Shown piece by piece: positions 1,688-61,316 of a stretch of 64,000 bases of DNA. The DNA is from Schlesneria paludicola DSM 18645 (GTDB lineage Bacteria; Planctomycetota; Planctomycetia; Planctomycetales; Planctomycetaceae): the NCBI GenBank assembly GCA_945862235.1, contig CAMAYU010000001.1:1-64000 (forward strand), given 5' to 3'. How positions within the stretch are numbered: the first letter of the stretch is position 1; every line of letters begins with the position of its first letter. A model generated the notes under the pieces. That model was not told the origin of the DNA. It ran no database searches and saw only the letters and a list, made by a program, of their open reading frames with translations. Made by a program: the position numbers and the translations under genes.

Positions 1688-1794
1688 CTAAGGATCAGCG
1701 CAGCAATCACTGTCGTGGCCGACGCTGCCAGCGTCTGCTCGGATGCTGGCAGCATCCGCCACGAGGGGACAGTGATTGTTGCGCCGGTCCTTAG
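1688..1794. repeat. Palindromic intergenic repeat, family 2 (copy 1)
   Basis: CAGCAATCACTGTCGTGGCCGACGCTGCCAGCGTC..GGATGCTGGCAGCATCCGCCACGAGGGGACAGTGATTGTTGCG; near-identical inverted copy at 57479-57572. Confidence 0.9.
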
Positions 1795-4286: not shown

Positions 4287-5276
4287 ATGACCGCCCCCAT
4301 CCATGTTGCCGTCACCGGAGCCGCCGGTCAGATCGGTTATGCCACGTTGTTCCGCCTCGCGTCGGGAGAAATCTTCGGCCAGCATCGGCCCGTCGTGCTG
4401 CACCTGATCGAAGTTCCCCCCGTCATGGCGGCGCTCGACGGCATCCACATGGAACTCGATGACTGCGCGTTCCCGACCCTCGCCGGAGTCGTCAAGCACG
4501 ACAGCGATCACATGGAAGAGGGCTTCCGCGACTGCAACTTCATCGTCCTCGTTGGCAGCATCCCGCGCAAGCAGGGGATGGAGCGAGCCGACTTGATCCG
4601 CATCAACGGCCCGATCTTCACGAGTACCGGCAAGGCGATCCAAGCGGCCGCAGCCAAGGACGTGCGCGTCGTCGTCGTCGGCAACCCGTGTAACACGAAC
4701 TGCCTGATCGCGATGTCACACGCGCCGGATGTTCCTCGCAACCAGTGGTTCGCCATGACGCGACTCGACCAGAACCGCGCTGCGGCTCAGTTGGCACAGA
4801 AGTCGGGACGGCCGGTCGGCTCGGTCTCGAACGTCGCCATTTGGGGCAACCACTCGGCCACGCAGTACCCCGACTTCGTGAACGCGAAGATCGACGGCAA
4901 GCCCGCCACGGAAGTCATCACCGATCATGCCTGGTTGAAAGGCGACTTCATCAGCACGGTGCAACAGCGCGGTGCGGCGGTCATCAAGGCCCGCGGCGCA
5001 TCGAGTGCCGCCAGCGCCGCCAACGCCGCGCTCGACACGATCAAGAGCATCATCACGCCGACCCCCGCTGACTCGTGCTTCAGCGCCGCCGTCTGCTCGG
5101 ACGGCAGCTACGGAATTGATTCGGGGCTCGTTGTCGGACTCCCTCTGTCGAGCGACGGTCGCAACTGGCGAGTCCTCCCCGGCTTCCAAGTCGATGACTT
5201 CAGCCGCAGCCAGATCGACAAGACGGTCGCCGAATTGAAGCAGGAACGAGACACGGTCAAGGATTTGCTCCCCTAA
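4287..5276 (+). CDS. mdh: Malate dehydrogenase
   Basis: MTAPIHVAVTGAAGQIGYATLFRLASGEIFG...VVVVGNPCNTNCLIA...MTRLDQNRA...GNHSATQYPD. Confidence 0.96.
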   Translation: MTAPIHVAVTGAAGQIGYATLFRLASGEIFGQHRPVVLHLIEVPPVMAALDGIHMELDDCAFPTLAGVVKHDSDHMEEGFRDCNFIVLVGSIPRKQGMERADLIRINGPIFTSTGKAIQAAAAKDVRVVVVGNPCNTNCLIAMSHAPDVPRNQWFAMTRLDQNRAAAQLAQKSGRPVGSVSNVAIWGNHSATQYPDFVNAKIDGKPATEVITDHAWLKGDFISTVQQRGAAVIKARGASSAASAANAALDTIKSIITPTPADSCFSAAVCSDGSYGIDSGLVVGLPLSSDGRNWRVLPGFQVDDFSRSQIDKTVAELKQERDTVKDLLP

Positions 5277-53571: not shown

Positions 53572-56010
53572 ATGACTCGATGCACGCGGATCGTTCTCTC
53601 GGGCTTGTTTGTTGTGGCGTTGGTGCTGGGAGAGATGCCGCGTCACGCAAGTGCGGCTGATTTGTCCGGAGTGGCCGTCAAAGAGGCGATTGAACGAGGC
53701 AAGAAATTTCTCGCCAGCCAGCAAGAGGCGAGCGGCGCTTGGTCAAACGGCACTGAAGGTCAGACGGTCGGTACGACGGCGATCGCTTTGCTGGCGCTGA
53801 TTAACTCGGGAATGACTCCTCAGGACGGGCCGGTGAAACGCGGTCTGAAGTTCCTGCGTGAGAGCGATCCGAGCGTCCATCCGGAAACTTATCAAGTCGC
53901 GCTATCGATCATGGCACTGGCCGCAGCGAAAGATGGCGCGACCGATCGCGTGCGGATCAGCCATCTCGCCCAACGCTTGGAAGCGGGCCAAGTCACCCAG
54001 ACGAACCCTGGCGCATGGGGCTATGAACTGAGCGGTGGCGGCGGCTTCATTGGAGGTGACAGCAGCAACACTCAGTTCGCGATCCTTGGTCTGCGCGAGG
54101 CAGTCGAAGCGGGGGCCGTCGTGAGCCGCGAAACTTGGACGAGGAACCGTGACTACTGGGTGCGTGGCCAGAACGGTGACGGAGGCTGGGCCTATACCAG
54201 TCAGAAAGGCGCGGGCGGCAGTTACGGCAGCATGACCGTGGCGGGGGTCTCCTCGTTGGCGATCTGCGAACAGATGCTGCGTTCCGATCAAGGAGTCGCG
54301 CCGGATGGAACGCCTCCCTGCTGCAATCAAGCCGAGCCAAACCCCGAACTTGAGAAGGGGCTGGAGTGGCTCGCGCGTCACTTCAATCCCGGCAACAACA
54401 ACGGCAGTCCTCACGGCAACGTCTTGTACTTTCTCTACGGCATCGAGCGAGCCGGACGACTCAGCGGCCAGCGGTTCTTTGGCGAACACGATTGGTACCG
54501 CGAGGGGGCCGCGTACCTCGTCAAGATGCAGAACGCGGTGATTGGTCGCTGGGATGGAGCGGGCCACGGTGAGTCTCACCCCGTCATCGCGACGAGTTAC
54601 GCATTGCTGTACTTGTCGAAAGGCCTCGCCCCGGTTCTCGTCAACAAATTGAAGTACGGGCCGCGCGATCCGCAGCGACCGCTTGAAGTCGTGGGTGACG
54701 ATTGGAACCGCCATCGTCGTGACATTCGCAACCTGACCGAACACATCAGCGGACGACCGAAGTGGCCGAAACTCCTCACGTCACAGGAAGTGGACCTCGC
54801 CCGCGCCGTGAAGTCCGACGGCGTGAACTCGCTGCTGCAAGCTCCCGTCCTGTTCATCACCGGCAAGGACCGACCGAAATTCGCGCCGGAAGAACTCAAG
54901 CTGCTCAAAGAGTATCTCCAAGAAGGGGGTTTCATCTTCGCAATGCCGACCTGCCAGTCGGCCGAGTTTGAAGCCGGTCTGCGCGAAGTGCTGACTCACA
55001 TCCTGCCGCCGGGCGAGGGAGAACTGAAACCGCTGACGCCCGACCATCCGGTCTATCGCAGCGAACACTTGCTGCACTCTGACGGCGTGCCGCTCCTCGG
55101 AGTGGACTTCGGTTGCCGCACAACGGTGATCTATTCCCCCGAAGACCTCGGTTGCCTGTGGGATTACTGGGCGAAACAAGACCCGCCGAAACGCAACGTG
55201 CAGCTCACAGCCAAGATTCTCCGCGCGACGCAGATTGGCGTGAACGTGATGGCCTACGCCACCGGACGAGAGCCGCCCGACAAGACCGACGCCCCGAAGA
55301 AAGTGGCCGAAGCAGCGGACCTCGACAACGTCGAGCGAGGGCTGCTCCAGATCGCGCAGATCAAGCACGACGGAGCTTGGAACGCCGCCCCGCGCGCGTT
55401 GCGCAACCTGCTCGTCGCGCTGAACGAAACAGCGGGCATGGCCGCCTCAACCAAATCGCGTGAGCTGACCTTCGCCGATCCCAACGTCTTCCAACACCCG
55501 ATCCTCTACATGCACGGACGCAATCGTTTCGCCATGAACAACGATGAGAAAAAGCAACTGCGCGAGTACCTCGACCGTGGCGGAGTGTTGTTTGCAGACT
55601 CCTGCTGCGGCGCGAAGCCGTTCGACAAATCGTTCCGTGAGTTCATGCAGGCGGTCTTCCCCGACAAGAAGTTCGAGCGGATCGCCGTCAACCACGAGTT
55701 GTTCACGGAAAAGTACGGCCACGACATCCGCAAACTACGCCGCCGGATGCAGGAGGCCGTGGGTGAGACCGCCGCGTCGTCGATGAACGTGCGCGAAGTC
55801 GATCCGCTGCTGGAAGGGATCGAAATCGATGGCCGACTCGCCGTGATCTACAGCAAGTACGACATCAGCTGTGCTCTCGAACGACAATCGGCGGGGAACT
55901 GCGAAGGCTACCTCCCCGAAGACGCAGTGAAGCTCGCCACGAACATCGTGTTGTACGCGTCGCTGCAAGACCTGCGACTGAAGCCTGCCGAAGTGAGCGA
56001 ACCGAAGTGA
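53572..56010 (+). CDS. Exported DUF4159 protein with N-terminal prenyltransferase/squalene-cyclase-type repeats
   Basis: 812 aa; EAIERGKKFLASQQEASGAWSNGTEGQTVGTTAIALLALINSG; two similar C-terminal regions (LLQAPVLFITGKDRPKFAPEELKLLKEYLQEGGFIF; FQHPILYMHGRNRFAMNNDEKKQLREYLDRGGVLFADSCCG). Confidence 0.88.
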   Translation: MTRCTRIVLSGLFVVALVLGEMPRHASAADLSGVAVKEAIERGKKFLASQQEASGAWSNGTEGQTVGTTAIALLALINSGMTPQDGPVKRGLKFLRESDPSVHPETYQVALSIMALAAAKDGATDRVRISHLAQRLEAGQVTQTNPGAWGYELSGGGGFIGGDSSNTQFAILGLREAVEAGAVVSRETWTRNRDYWVRGQNGDGGWAYTSQKGAGGSYGSMTVAGVSSLAICEQMLRSDQGVAPDGTPPCCNQAEPNPELEKGLEWLARHFNPGNNNGSPHGNVLYFLYGIERAGRLSGQRFFGEHDWYREGAAYLVKMQNAVIGRWDGAGHGESHPVIATSYALLYLSKGLAPVLVNKLKYGPRDPQRPLEVVGDDWNRHRRDIRNLTEHISGRPKWPKLLTSQEVDLARAVKSDGVNSLLQAPVLFITGKDRPKFAPEELKLLKEYLQEGGFIFAMPTCQSAEFEAGLREVLTHILPPGEGELKPLTPDHPVYRSEHLLHSDGVPLLGVDFGCRTTVIYSPEDLGCLWDYWAKQDPPKRNVQLTAKILRATQIGVNVMAYATGREPPDKTDAPKKVAEAADLDNVERGLLQIAQIKHDGAWNAAPRALRNLLVALNETAGMAASTKSRELTFADPNVFQHPILYMHGRNRFAMNNDEKKQLREYLDRGGVLFADSCCGAKPFDKSFREFMQAVFPDKKFERIAVNHELFTEKYGHDIRKLRRRMQEAVGETAASSMNVREVDPLLEGIEIDGRLAVIYSKYDISCALERQSAGNCEGYLPEDAVKLATNIVLYASLQDLRLKPAEVSEPK

Positions 56011-56040: not shown

Positions 56041-56433
56041 TCAATCGGCGCTCAAAACTTCGTCACGGCAGCGCTCGGGGAAAACCGCGATCAGTTCGTG
56101 AGCTTGGTTTGGTCCCCAAGCGGCGACGGCTTCTTTGAGGATGCTCAAGTACGTTGCCCGGTTGTCCCAGTCCGGTTGAAACGGCAGAGCCTCGTGGATC
56201 AACACGATCCGGCGCGGATGCTCGATCCACGCGAGATCGCGGAGACATTCTTCGAGAGCATCCCAGTTCCAGCCGAAGTAACCGGGAAAATCCAAGCCGC
56301 GTGCAAGAACCGTCAACAGATCTCGCTTACGCAGCAGACCGGCCGGAACTCGGACGACGCGTGCTTCGGCGGCTGAATACAGAGCCGGGGCGTCAACAAA
56401 TTGGAAGCCGACGGGACAAGGTGAATCGGACAT
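56041..56433 (-). CDS. Barstar-family protein
   Basis: RKRDLLTVLARGLDFPGYFGWNWDALEECLRDLAWIEHPRRIVLIHEALPF. Confidence 0.88.
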   Translation of the reverse strand: MSDSPCPVGFQFVDAPALYSAAEARVVRVPAGLLRKRDLLTVLARGLDFPGYFGWNWDALEECLRDLAWIEHPRRIVLIHEALPFQPDWDNRATYLSILKEAVAAWGPNQAHELIAVFPERCRDEVLSAD

Positions 56434-56505
56434 GACGGAAGAATTCTCGGGGATGTCGTTGCGTGGGAAGCGCCGTTCATGGACGAGGCGTCTGATCGAG
56501 GCCGG

Positions 56506-57363
56506 TCATTTGATCTTCTTAAACGTCTCGTAATGGTCGGGCGTGTACCAGATGTCGCCGCTCTTGCCGAAGATGACTCGTTGCGGTCCGGGACCGTTGA
56601 TGTCCTTCGTCGGATGAACGTACTCGGTGTAATAGCCCTGCGGTTTTTGAGGGAGTCGGCGTTCGCGATTGCCGAACGTCGAGCCGTCATTGCGATGCGT
56701 GTTCCGCTCGCCCCGCGCGATCCGGTCGAGCGTCGGTTGCAGGTCGATCGTCCCTTTGAAAACGACACGACCGAAGTCACGAATCGTCTGGTTTTCAAGC
56801 TGAGCCGTCGTCGCTGACTTCTTCTCGACAGTGTCCGGTTTCGGAGTATCACGTCGTGGATCGTTCGTCGGTTGCGTGGGCGACTTCGGACTCATCCGCG
56901 GATCGGGCGCGGTGCGGTCTGAAGTCGATCGATCATTCGCCGTGGGGGCGCGACCAGCCGTCGTTGGACTCGGACCAGCTCGCGTCGGAGCGGGGGTTCG
57001 ATCGGTCGTCGCGAGCGGCTTGCCGGGCACTGCGGTCTTGGACGATGTGCTTCCCGCGGTGGATGGCAGAGCCTCACGCGACGGAACTGTTCCCGGTTCT
57101 GGCATTACCTCCGGTACGACCGGAGCATCGTGAAAGTCGTCGTTGGAAGCGACTTCGCTGGACGATGCCCGTGTTGTCGTCGCAGCAGGCTTCGCACCGT
57201 TCTCTTGTTGCGCGAGAACACGCTCCCGTTCGGTAGCATCCCGCCGCTGTGTGTTCTGATACCAAGCGAACCCGAGGAATCCCAAGATCAATACGATGAC
57301 GAGCCACGGCGAGAGCTTCTGCACCCCCATTCGTGGAGTGGATGGAGTGGAACCGCTGGACAT
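56506..57363 (-). CDS. Membrane-anchored barnase-like ribonuclease
   Basis: TM segment LSPWLVIVLILGFLGFAWYQ, long Pro/Thr/Ala linker, C-terminus GSTFGNRERRLPQKPQGYYTEYVHPTKDINGPGPQRVIFGKSGDIWYTPDHYETFKKI. Confidence 0.88.
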   Translation of the reverse strand: MSSGSTPSTPRMGVQKLSPWLVIVLILGFLGFAWYQNTQRRDATERERVLAQQENGAKPAATTTRASSSEVASNDDFHDAPVVPEVMPEPGTVPSREALPSTAGSTSSKTAVPGKPLATTDRTPAPTRAGPSPTTAGRAPTANDRSTSDRTAPDPRMSPKSPTQPTNDPRRDTPKPDTVEKKSATTAQLENQTIRDFGRVVFKGTIDLQPTLDRIARGERNTHRNDGSTFGNRERRLPQKPQGYYTEYVHPTKDINGPGPQRVIFGKSGDIWYTPDHYETFKKIK

Positions 57364-57478: not shown

Positions 57479-57572
57479 TAGGACCGGCGCAACAATCACT
57501 GTCCCCTCGTGGCGGATGCTGCCAGCATCCGAGCCGACGCTGGCAGCGTCGGCCACGACAGTGATTGCTGCG
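57479..57572. repeat. Palindromic intergenic repeat, family 2 (copy 2, inverted relative to copy 1)
   Basis: GGACCGGCGCAACAATCACTGTCCCCTCGTGGCGGATGCTGCCAGCATCCGAGCCGACGCTGGCAGCGTCGGCCACGACAGTGATTGCTGCG. Confidence 0.92.
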
Positions 57573-57670: not shown

Positions 57671-59551
57671 TCAGGGCAGCAGTGTCAGTGTGATGCGGCG
57701 CACGTCCATGACCGACTTGCCGGGGATCTCCAGCGCACGCAAGGTGAGCGGTCCTTGGCCCCGTTCCAACCTGATCTCACCGAGCTTCAGCGGGCGGAAC
57801 TCTTTCATCTGCGATTCGCCGTGGGGGCGAGGCAGCGTGTCTTGGTTCGTGTAGAGCGGCGGGTTCCAGCCGGGAGTGACTTGGCCCGTGAGCCGGCTGT
57901 TGCGGAAGGCCAGTTCCACTTGTGAACCAACGTCCGGCTCGGGGCAGGTGTAGTCGATGACCACTTCGTAGCGACCGGTGGTGTGGACATCGAGCAGCCA
58001 GACCAAGCTGTCCTCTTTTGAGGTCCAGTTCACGAAGTATGAGCAGTTCGGCGCGGGGCTGCTGCGCTTCACGGTGCCGCGCGGTTCGCCATCGCGGGCG
58101 GGGAGCATCGTGATGGGGAATTCGCGATAACCGACGGGGATCGGACGGGGATCCACGGCGTTGCCCGTCACGGCTTTCTTCAACGTCACAAGGTTCGGAG
58201 CGGTGTTCGAGTCCAGGCCGCGACCTCCATTCAACACGTCCTGCCGCCAAGCCAGCACCGCCGCTTTCAATCGCGCGGCGATCTGAGGTTCGCGATCCGT
58301 GATCGGCGTCGTTTGCCCCGGATCGGTCCCCATGTCGAAGAGCTGTCCTTGATCGTCGAGCCGGTGCTGTTGAGTTCTCACGCTGACCTTCCCCGCCCAT
58401 GTGGAGAAGATCATCCGGTCGGACCAGTTGACCTGTTGCTTGAGCAGCAACGGCGAGAGGTCTCGCCCGTCGAGCGACTTGTCACCGACGCGAGGCACGT
58501 CGGCCAGCGCGAGCAGCGTGGGGAGCAGGTCAATCGCACCGGCGATCTGCGTGACGGTCTGATTGGCGGGCAATCGTGCGGGCCAGCGAAGGAAGCATGT
58601 CGAGCGCACGCCCCCTTCATCGGTCGTGCCTTTACGTCCCTTCATGCCGCCATTCCAACGCGCACTGTTCGGGCCGTTGTCCGAAAAGTAGAGGACGATC
58701 GTGTTGTCGGTCAGCTTCCACTCCTCAAGCTTTGCCAGCACACGTCCGACGTTCGCGTCCTGGTTCTCGACCATCGCGAGGGCGCAGCGCGTCTCGTCGA
58801 GAACCTCTTTGTCTGGATCGGTCGCACGCTGCGTGATCGGCTTCGATTTGAACCGCTCCCAATCCCGTTCGGGCGCGGCCCACGGTGAATGGGGCGTGGT
58901 GAACGGGACGTAACAGAGGAACGGCTTCGTCGCGTTGCGGTCGATGAAGTCGAGCGCCTGGTTCGTGCAGAGGTCCACGATGTAGCCCGGCTCGCGCACC
59001 ATCCGACCGTTTCGTTCGAGGGGTGGATCGAAGTACTCGCCCCAATGTCCCGAGCTGTGTCCGTAGTACTCATCGAACCCGCGTGCCATCGGGTGGTACG
59101 GCCACTGGCTGCCGTTGTGCCACTTGCCGAACGCTCCCGTCGCATAGCCCGCCGCCTGGAACGCATCCGCGACGGTCCGTTCATCCAGATCGAGCCGCTC
59201 CTGTCCAGTCGAGACCCCGCGCACCCCGCCGCGCGGGTGATAGCGCCCGGTCAGAAGCTCACCCCGCGTCGGAGCGCAGACGGGACAGACGAAGAACCGG
59301 TCGAGCGTCACGCCACCGCGCGCGATCGAGTCGATGTTTGGTGTGCTGACCTGCGTGTTGCCGTTGCGACTGTAGTCACCCCACCCGGCGTCATCGGCCA
59401 GAAAGATCACGACATTCGGCCGCGAGGCCGCAACGCCGAGTTGGCACTGAAGCGCCGACACGACGATGGCTAACACCGGCCACATGTGGCGAGACAACTC
59501 CCGCGAGATGCGATGAGTCCACGAACTGTGATGCGGGGGGATCGGCTTCAT
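57671..59551 (-). CDS. Sulfatase (arylsulfatase family)
   Basis: RPNVVIFLADDAGWGDYSRNGN; FFVCPVCAPTRGELLTGRYHPR (C-x-x-x-R); ALDFIDRNATKPFLCYVPFTTPHSPW. Confidence 0.95.
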   Translation of the reverse strand: MKPIPPHHSSWTHRISRELSRHMWPVLAIVVSALQCQLGVAASRPNVVIFLADDAGWGDYSRNGNTQVSTPNIDSIARGGVTLDRFFVCPVCAPTRGELLTGRYHPRGGVRGVSTGQERLDLDERTVADAFQAAGYATGAFGKWHNGSQWPYHPMARGFDEYYGHSSGHWGEYFDPPLERNGRMVREPGYIVDLCTNQALDFIDRNATKPFLCYVPFTTPHSPWAAPERDWERFKSKPITQRATDPDKEVLDETRCALAMVENQDANVGRVLAKLEEWKLTDNTIVLYFSDNGPNSARWNGGMKGRKGTTDEGGVRSTCFLRWPARLPANQTVTQIAGAIDLLPTLLALADVPRVGDKSLDGRDLSPLLLKQQVNWSDRMIFSTWAGKVSVRTQQHRLDDQGQLFDMGTDPGQTTPITDREPQIAARLKAAVLAWRQDVLNGGRGLDSNTAPNLVTLKKAVTGNAVDPRPIPVGYREFPITMLPARDGEPRGTVKRSSPAPNCSYFVNWTSKEDSLVWLLDVHTTGRYEVVIDYTCPEPDVGSQVELAFRNSRLTGQVTPGWNPPLYTNQDTLPRPHGESQMKEFRPLKLGEIRLERGQGPLTLRALEIPGKSVMDVRRITLTLLP

Positions 59552-59744: not shown

Positions 59745-61316
59745 CTACTTGGTCGCATTCTTGTTGGGATTGTCAGCAGGTCGATTGGCGGCGCGGCCGT
59801 TTGGCTGGAGCGGATCGTGGCTCTCATTGCGAGTCGGCAGCACCGCACCGACCTCTTTCTGCCAGACGTGCAACTCGTCCGTCAGTTGGCGAACTCGTTC
59901 AGGTTGCTGGGCGGCAAGATTGGTCTGTTCTCCCAGATCATGGCCGAGGTGAAACAGTTCGACGCGCGAATCTTCAAACCACTCGATCAGTTTCCACTCG
60001 CCACGACGAATAGCCGCTCCGGGAGCTCCTCCCTGATTGCCGTAGTGCGGGTAGTGCCAGCACAACGCGCGATCGGAAAGCGATTCGCCTCGCAACAGCG
60101 GCAGCAGGCTGAGGCCGTCGAGCTTCTGATCGGCGGCGGGCTTCGCACCGGCCGCATCGAGCAGTGTCGGAAAGAAATCGGGACTGCTGACGGGAGTGTC
60201 GATCACACGCTCGGCCTTCAGAACGGCGGGCCAACGCACGATAAGCGGTTCGCGAATCCCGCCTTCGTAGAGCCAGCCTTTGCCGCCACGCAGCGGCAAG
60301 TTGGACGTAGGCCAACCCTCACTCGTCGAGAGGCCGCCGTTATCACTCGTAAAGATGACGAGCGTGTTGTCGCGCAGCTTTAATTCGTCGAGCTTCGCCA
60401 AGACCTTGCCGACCGCGAGATCCATCGCTTCGACCATCCCCGCATAGACGGTGTGTTCTTGAACGAGTCTCACATCGCGCGGTTCCTCGCGGCCCCACTT
60501 GGCCTCCAACCCGAGCCGCTGCCGTTTCTCTTCGTACTTCTGTTTCAAGTCGTCACGCGCCATCAGAGGCGTGTGGACTGAGTAGAACGAGAAGTACGCG
60601 AAGAACGGCCGGTCCTTGTTCGCTTCGATGAACTTCGCCGTCTCGTTCGCGAGTCGATCAGGAAGATGCTCGCCCGGTGGCCCGTCCTCCAAACGCGGGT
60701 TGCCGTACTGCGAGAAGTACTGGTTTCCGCCGTACGGGCCGCCGCGATCGTGTCCGCCGCGATTGATGTCGAAGCCTTGGTTCTCGGGCCAGAAGCCCTC
60801 CGGTCCCAGATGCCACTTCCCCGCGAAGAACGTCGCGTAGCCCGCTCCCTTCATCGCTTTGGCCAACGTCGGTGAGTCGAGTTTGAGGCGATCGCGATAG
60901 GGCGCTGGACGCAGCGCCGTGTTGCGGTTCCATTGTGCGGGAGCCGCCGCGCCGATGTAGTCGGTGATGCCGGTTCGCTGCGGCCACTGACCGGACATGA
61001 TGCTGGCCCGCGTCGGTGAACAGACGGGACAGGCGGCGTAGGCGTTCGTGAACCTCGCCCCTTCCCGCGCGAGGCGGTCGAGGTTGGGCGTCTCATAAAA
61101 CGTACTGCCATAGCAACCGAGATCGCGTTGCCCGAGATCATCCGCCAAAAAGAAGACGACGTTGGGCCGAGCCGGATCGTTGGCGGAGAGACCCGCACTC
61201 GGAACGGTCGTGACGGCCTGCAACAGCAGCGCGACGGTGGTGACAAGCATCAGTCGAAATCTTTCTGGAGGTTGGATGGGACGCTGCGACGGAACGATTG
61301 CGGGGAACTCGAACAT
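59745..61316 (-). CDS. Sulfatase
   Basis: RPNVVFFLADDLGQRDLGCYGSTFYETPNLDRLAREGARFTNAYAACPVCSPTRASIMSGQWPQRTGI; GKWHLGPEGFWPENQGFD. Confidence 0.96.
   Translation of the reverse strand: MFEFPAIVPSQRPIQPPERFRLMLVTTVALLLQAVTTVPSAGLSANDPARPNVVFFLADDLGQRDLGCYGSTFYETPNLDRLAREGARFTNAYAACPVCSPTRASIMSGQWPQRTGITDYIGAAAPAQWNRNTALRPAPYRDRLKLDSPTLAKAMKGAGYATFFAGKWHLGPEGFWPENQGFDINRGGHDRGGPYGGNQYFSQYGNPRLEDGPPGEHLPDRLANETAKFIEANKDRPFFAYFSFYSVHTPLMARDDLKQKYEEKRQRLGLEAKWGREEPRDVRLVQEHTVYAGMVEAMDLAVGKVLAKLDELKLRDNTLVIFTSDNGGLSTSEGWPTSNLPLRGGKGWLYEGGIREPLIVRWPAVLKAERVIDTPVSSPDFFPTLLDAAGAKPAADQKLDGLSLLPLLRGESLSDRALCWHYPHYGNQGGAPGAAIRRGEWKLIEWFEDSRVELFHLGHDLGEQTNLAAQQPERVRQLTDELHVWQKEVGAVLPTRNESHDPLQPNGRAANRPADNPNKNATK

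Follow-up and report, generated by a model that had tools for sequence, protein, structure and literature searches.

Ribonucleases Sa2, Sa and Sa3 of Streptomyces are small secreted enzymes. They belong to the PF00545 family (PDB 1py3, 1gmp and 1mgr) and share a common fold, a catalytic Glu-Arg-His set and a guanine-site Arg-Glu pair. Simple barnase-barstar pairs (Tox-Barnase / Imm-Barstar), in which the RNase gene is followed by a barstar gene on the same strand and polymorphic delivery parts are lacking, have already been described as widely distributed, with planctomycetes listed, in Zhang et al. 2012 (PMC3482391). A related exported N1/T1 RNase, balifase of Bacillus licheniformis, shares an operon with a barstar orthologue, is fully extracellular and is induced by phosphate starvation (PMC5021464).

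The genome of Schlesneria paludicola DSM 18645 encodes a locus of this kind in the window, which is the whole 64,000-nt stretch of DNA that was analysed. The encoded RNase has the fold and the catalytic and guanine-site residues of the Streptomyces enzymes, to which it adds an anchor, a linker and an N-terminal beta-hairpin, and carries Pro in place of Sa Arg65. Like balifase, it is an N1/T1 RNase accompanied by a barstar, and the gene order and strand are those of the simple pairs. However, unlike the enzymes of the simple pairs as presented in the available portion of PMC3482391, the RNase is predicted to be uncleaved and held at the membrane on a stalk of about 150 aa, whereas balifase is released from the cell.

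Organisation of the RNase-barstar locus

On the minus strand of the window the RNase gene precedes the barstar gene (Table 1). The open reading frames and their features are as delimited in the first-pass annotation, and its description of a membrane-anchored RNase of the barnase/N1-T1 superfamily with an adjoining barstar was borne out by the Pfam matches (PF00545 and PF01337) and the N-terminal helix. A chance open reading frame was ruled out for the RNase because its whole architecture is conserved across the genus, where the gene is found in 15/15 genomes. No terminator-like site was found on the minus strand inside the intergenic gap, and a promoter scan of the RNase-barstar region gave no match.

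Table 1. Coordinates of the RNase-barstar locus and surrounding features in the window
Feature	Coordinates	Strand	Properties	Basis
RNase Sa-like ribonuclease gene, predicted membrane-tethered	56506..57363	minus	285 aa, ATG	profile and structure-database matches, genus conservation
N-terminal hydrophobic membrane helix, aa 17-35, LSPWLVIVLILGFLGFAWY	57259..57315	minus	hydropathy 2.34	model helix
Disordered Pro/Thr/Ser/Ala-rich linker, about aa 36-187	56803..57258	minus	60% PTSAGQ	pLDDT about 50
RNase domain, about aa 188-285	56509..56802	minus	N-terminal beta-hairpin	profile, alignment, model
RNase active-site residues			E247, R262, H277, Y278 catalytic; R233/E234 guanine site	
RNase-barstar gap	56434..56505	minus (both genes same strand)	72 nt	
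Barstar-family inhibitor gene	56041..56433	minus	130 aa	PF01337 E=8.7e-19
Gene of 812-aa protein	53572..56010			
Sulfatase genes	57671..59551 and 59745..61316	minus		
93-bp element, first copy	57480..57572			
93-bp element, second copy	1699..1791		inverted	

The product of the gene convergent with that of the barstar is 812 aa long; it shows weak squalene-cyclase-like matches and carries DUF4159 as its C-terminal domain. Two consecutive sulfatase genes are located upstream of the RNase on the same strand. The 93-bp element upstream of the RNase, in which nested palindromes (GGATGCTGCCAGCATCC, CCGACGCTGGCAGCGTCGG) lie within 16-bp inverted arms, is REP- or MITE-like; the two copies in the window share 99% identity.

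The ribonuclease and barstar domains

The catalytic domain had been named barnase-like in the first-pass annotation. A Pfam profile search assigned residues 213-284 to PF00545 (E=1.6e-12; 48.3 bits versus a curated cut-off of 24), and the nearest solved structures were Streptomyces RNase Sa2 (PDB 1py3, E=1.9e-13) and then Sa3 (2.7e-9), with barnase reaching an E-value of only about 0.02-0.04 in the same structure-database comparison. In the AlphaFold2 model, built with 35 relatives, the domain (residues 188-285) is predicted confidently, with pLDDT mostly >90, and begins with the beta-hairpin. Foldseek matched this model to RNase Sa2 (E=9.5e-8, TM 0.75 by target, rmsd 1.2), a microbial RNase fold, the structural alignment giving 43% identity. 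Membership of the barnase/N1-T1 superfamily therefore stands, the closer relative being RNase Sa2 rather than barnase. Barnase in the strict sense, a free secreted enzyme of ~110 aa with Arg83, is ruled out by the anchor and linker, by the closer RNase Sa2 match and by Pro258, which occupies the position of barnase Arg83 / Sa Arg65.

The catalytic Glu, Arg and His that had been named by eye proved to be real: E247, R262 and H277 align with Glu54, Arg69 and His85 of RNase Sa, positions that are invariant in 48/48 aligned planctomycete homologues. The guanine-site Glu (Sa E41) corresponds to E234 and is kept in 43/48 of them. By profile, residues and fold the domain is an N1/T1 microbial ribonuclease, and guanyl-specific RNA cleavage is its predicted activity. 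The great variation in length and sequence of the linker might suggest an inert or relic pair that has lost its function and persists by drift; this is highly improbable given the invariance of the catalytic residues in all 48 homologues and the 63-73% identity that the domain, in contrast to the divergent linker, retains across the genus.

The barstar of the window scores 67.7 bits against the curated PF01337 cut-off of 23.4. In its RNase-binding helix (DxxxD) the Asp35 equivalent is kept as D58, and the position of Asp39 is occupied by E62, a conservative substitution. Its family and pairing suggest that it acts as the inhibitor of the neighbouring RNase.

Membrane anchor and topology

AlphaFold2 predicts a single N-terminal helix at residues 19-56 (pLDDT about 73-95) of the window RNase, followed by the linker, for which pLDDT is about 45-55 over residues ~60-180 and confidence stays low up to about residue 185. 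The linker, ~150 aa in the window protein, ranges from 25 to 149 aa across the genus. The N-terminal side of the helix is more net positive than the C-terminal side in 21/26 homologues; the bias is weak in the window protein, with net +2 (N) versus +1 (C), and reversed in four of its close relatives. The homologue of G350 has a cleavable-looking signal peptide in place of the anchor. A C-out topology, with the RNase domain in the periplasm, is moderately likely on this comparison of sequences.

If the anchor were inverted, the protein would instead be a cytoplasm-facing stress or phage-response RNase, silenced by the barstar until loss or displacement of the inhibitor triggers RNA destruction. 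Such an enzyme would be consistent with the weak flank-charge bias of some members and with the tight coupling to barstar domains in the genus, which holds even after loss of the adjacent gene. It is nevertheless quite improbable, as both close and distant relatives carry export-type signal peptides, lipoboxes or anchors, some genomes encode the RNase with no barstar detected, and no defence neighbourhood was seen beside the pair.

Distribution of RNase-barstar pairs

The same pair occurs in other planctomycetes. In a broad sample of 394 Planctomycetota genomes, 18 had the RNase domain, and 16 of these 18 encode a barstar directly beside it, while any barstar was present in 25/376 RNase-negative genomes (Fisher p about 1e-15, kinship ignored). 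In the family, a barstar is present in 34/37 RNase-positive versus 19/134 RNase-negative genomes. The RNase-positive genomes G520 (one contig, 98% complete) and G357 had no detectable barstar, so that either the inhibitor is not strictly needed everywhere or another or diverged one was missed.

A scan at one genome per species recovered at least 573 related stretches, of which the best 80, from Planctomycetota, Proteobacteria, Actinobacteria, Chloroflexota and others, were examined. Among these best 80, a barstar-like frame is close to the RNase in 76, and 74 start with a hydrophobic segment of lipoprotein, signal-peptide, anchor or unclear type, as sorted by a crude classifier that placed several likely lipoproteins in the anchor/unclear class. 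Lipoprotein, signal-peptide and anchor N-termini are usual for the pair in the Actinobacteria and Proteobacteria of this set, and Pro/Ser/Thr/Ala-rich linkers are frequent. Export or tethering with an adjoining barstar is thus ordinary among these best matches, and the earlier view of tethering as exceptional with respect to secreted barnase has to be abandoned.

Larger proteins with related domains were also observed. In G463 a 1447-aa frame with a C-terminal RNase-like end is followed by a barstar (L133:2-4342 and 4342-4845), and in G269 (L307) the same arrangement involves a 957-aa frame; these giant frames represent relatives of polymorphic-toxin type within the same family and are distinct from the tethered RNase. 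In G365 (L069:7135-8961) and G410 (L122) the gene directly behind the RNase encodes a barstar domain fused N-terminally to a protein that matches glycosyltransferase-4 weakly, and a protein of this kind without the barstar domain is encoded by G520.

Conservation of the RNase in the genus Schlesneria

All 15 Schlesneria genomes, several of which have short contigs, encode one copy of the RNase, and all copies that are complete share one architecture. The RNase-domain tree recovers the main species clades of a tree of three markers (the window-encoded phosphohexomutase-like protein, HisN and HisG), support being modest owing to the short length of the domain. Taken together, distribution and tree are the pattern that a vertically inherited core gene would leave.

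This pattern bears on the possibility that the RNase is an antibacterial toxin, displayed or shed at the surface to enter competitors and destroy their RNA, with the barstar as immunity protein. Zhang et al. 2012 (PMC3482391) treats barnase-barstar as toxin-immunity and the simple pairs as possibly of incipient toxin-immunity order, and the giant frame of G463 represents a polymorphic-type version in the same family. For the tethered RNase such a role is unlikely: no delivery module, variable C-terminus or immunity cassettes accompany it, a single-copy, genus-universal and clade-congruent gene is unlike patchy toxins, and an anchor in the inner membrane of the producer offers no obvious path into other cells. 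On these grounds the contact-dependent toxin was the least supported of the three roles offered in the first-pass annotation, and a housekeeping periplasm-facing RNase is favoured over it. A polymorphic toxin or contact-dependent inhibition system was rejected for a 285-aa protein that has no large N-terminal delivery module and a domain conserved, not exchanged, in 15/15 genomes.

Loss and possible replacement of the adjacent barstar

The adjacent barstar is found only in the window genome, G396, G397 and G406 (4/15 genomes of the genus); none is present in the stretches around the RNase of the other 11. The catalytic residues are intact in these 11 genomes, which speaks against inactivation of their RNases. 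Another type of barstar is encoded elsewhere in exactly the same 11 genomes and in none of the four with the adjacent gene, and a barstar domain is present in 15/15 genomes. In nine (G394, G395, G398, G400, G402, G403, G404, G405 and G407) it forms the C-terminal domain of a HisN-like phosphatase, as in the G395 fusion (PF00459 1.4e-44 and PF01337 1.1e-11); two fusions tested scored 272-274 bits with the NCBIfam HisN profile, just below the cut-off of 275. In G399 and G401 the alternative barstar is a standalone gene. In the other six genomes the open frame of HisN, at 272-302 aa, leaves no room for a barstar extension.

Most members of the alternative type keep the equivalents of Gly31, Asn33, Asp35 and Asp39 (WGRNLDAFND). 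Among the unpaired barstars read outside the genus, one of this type was seen in the family, as a standalone gene in the RNase-negative G431. G452 and G467 encode an unlinked barstar and an RNase without an adjoining one.

In the species tree the nine fusion genomes form one clade (100%), while G399 and G401 form a clade (100%) nested with G397 and G406, where the adjacent barstar is retained. Since the adjacent state also occurs in other genera, the simplest interpretation of this tree is that the adjacent barstar was lost at least twice. The genes flanking the G399/G401 locus match those of G397, the barstar alone being missing, and no remnants of it were found behind the RNase at this syntenic site. 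In the nine-genome clade the RNase gene lies behind hisI and hisG (assignments read from the sequences) and shares their strand. Its distance from hisG is 43-65 nt in the eight genomes where this could be measured; in G395 the frame that comes after hisG is truncated by the contig end, and its beginning resembles the RNase anchor.

The complementarity of the two barstar types has a formal p of 0.0007, which overstates it because only two evolutionary events underlie the pattern; the alternative barstar may have been gained once, with reciprocal losses afterwards, or gained twice. The presence pattern suggests an exchange of inhibitor function. Tentatively, a barstar at another locus, fused to HisN in nine genomes, may have replaced the lost adjacent one, and the position of the RNase behind hisI-hisG may place the unlinked enzyme and inhibitor under shared histidine-synthesis regulation, a scenario that we consider plausible but short of probable. 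Such an exchange is not described in the available portion of Zhang et al. 2012 (PMC3482391), and a literature search found neither a barstar together with histidinol phosphatase nor a description of a metabolic enzyme with such an inhibitor domain.

Proposed function

With moderate confidence, the RNase is best explained as an exported, membrane-anchored guanyl-specific endoribonuclease with a periplasmic domain on a stalk, serving RNA or phosphate salvage and safeguarded by a cytoplasmic barstar. The anchor, the export signals of the relatives and the conserved catalytic site together suggest this periplasm-facing arrangement with a safety inhibitor. An uncleaved N-terminal signal anchor would hold the RNase at the outer face of the cytoplasmic membrane, and the disordered stalk would extend the catalytic domain into the periplasm, where it would most likely cut the RNA that reaches this compartment, the cleavage products feeding nucleotide or phosphate salvage. 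The barstar would remain in the cytoplasm and plug the active site of any RNase molecule whose export fails. The RNase is presumably active and presumably inhibited by the barstar.

RNA or phosphate scavenging may be the most natural role for such a core gene. It is favoured by the phosphate regulation of the Bacillus relative, balifase, and by the macromolecule-collecting periplasm of Planctomycetes, which gather macromolecules in this enlarged compartment (PMC5394234). None of the window neighbours of the RNase indicates nucleotide salvage or a phosphate response.

With this pair, the known and widespread combination of an exported RNase and a cytoplasmic inhibitor gains a planctomycete version that is predicted here to be stalked and membrane-anchored. 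The genus comparison represents a natural experiment on the interchangeability of barstars, in which the adjacent gene was apparently lost at least twice, the RNase stayed intact and another barstar was present each time. Should the HisN-fused barstar prove to inhibit the RNase, a metabolic enzyme would be carrying the inhibitor as one of its domains.
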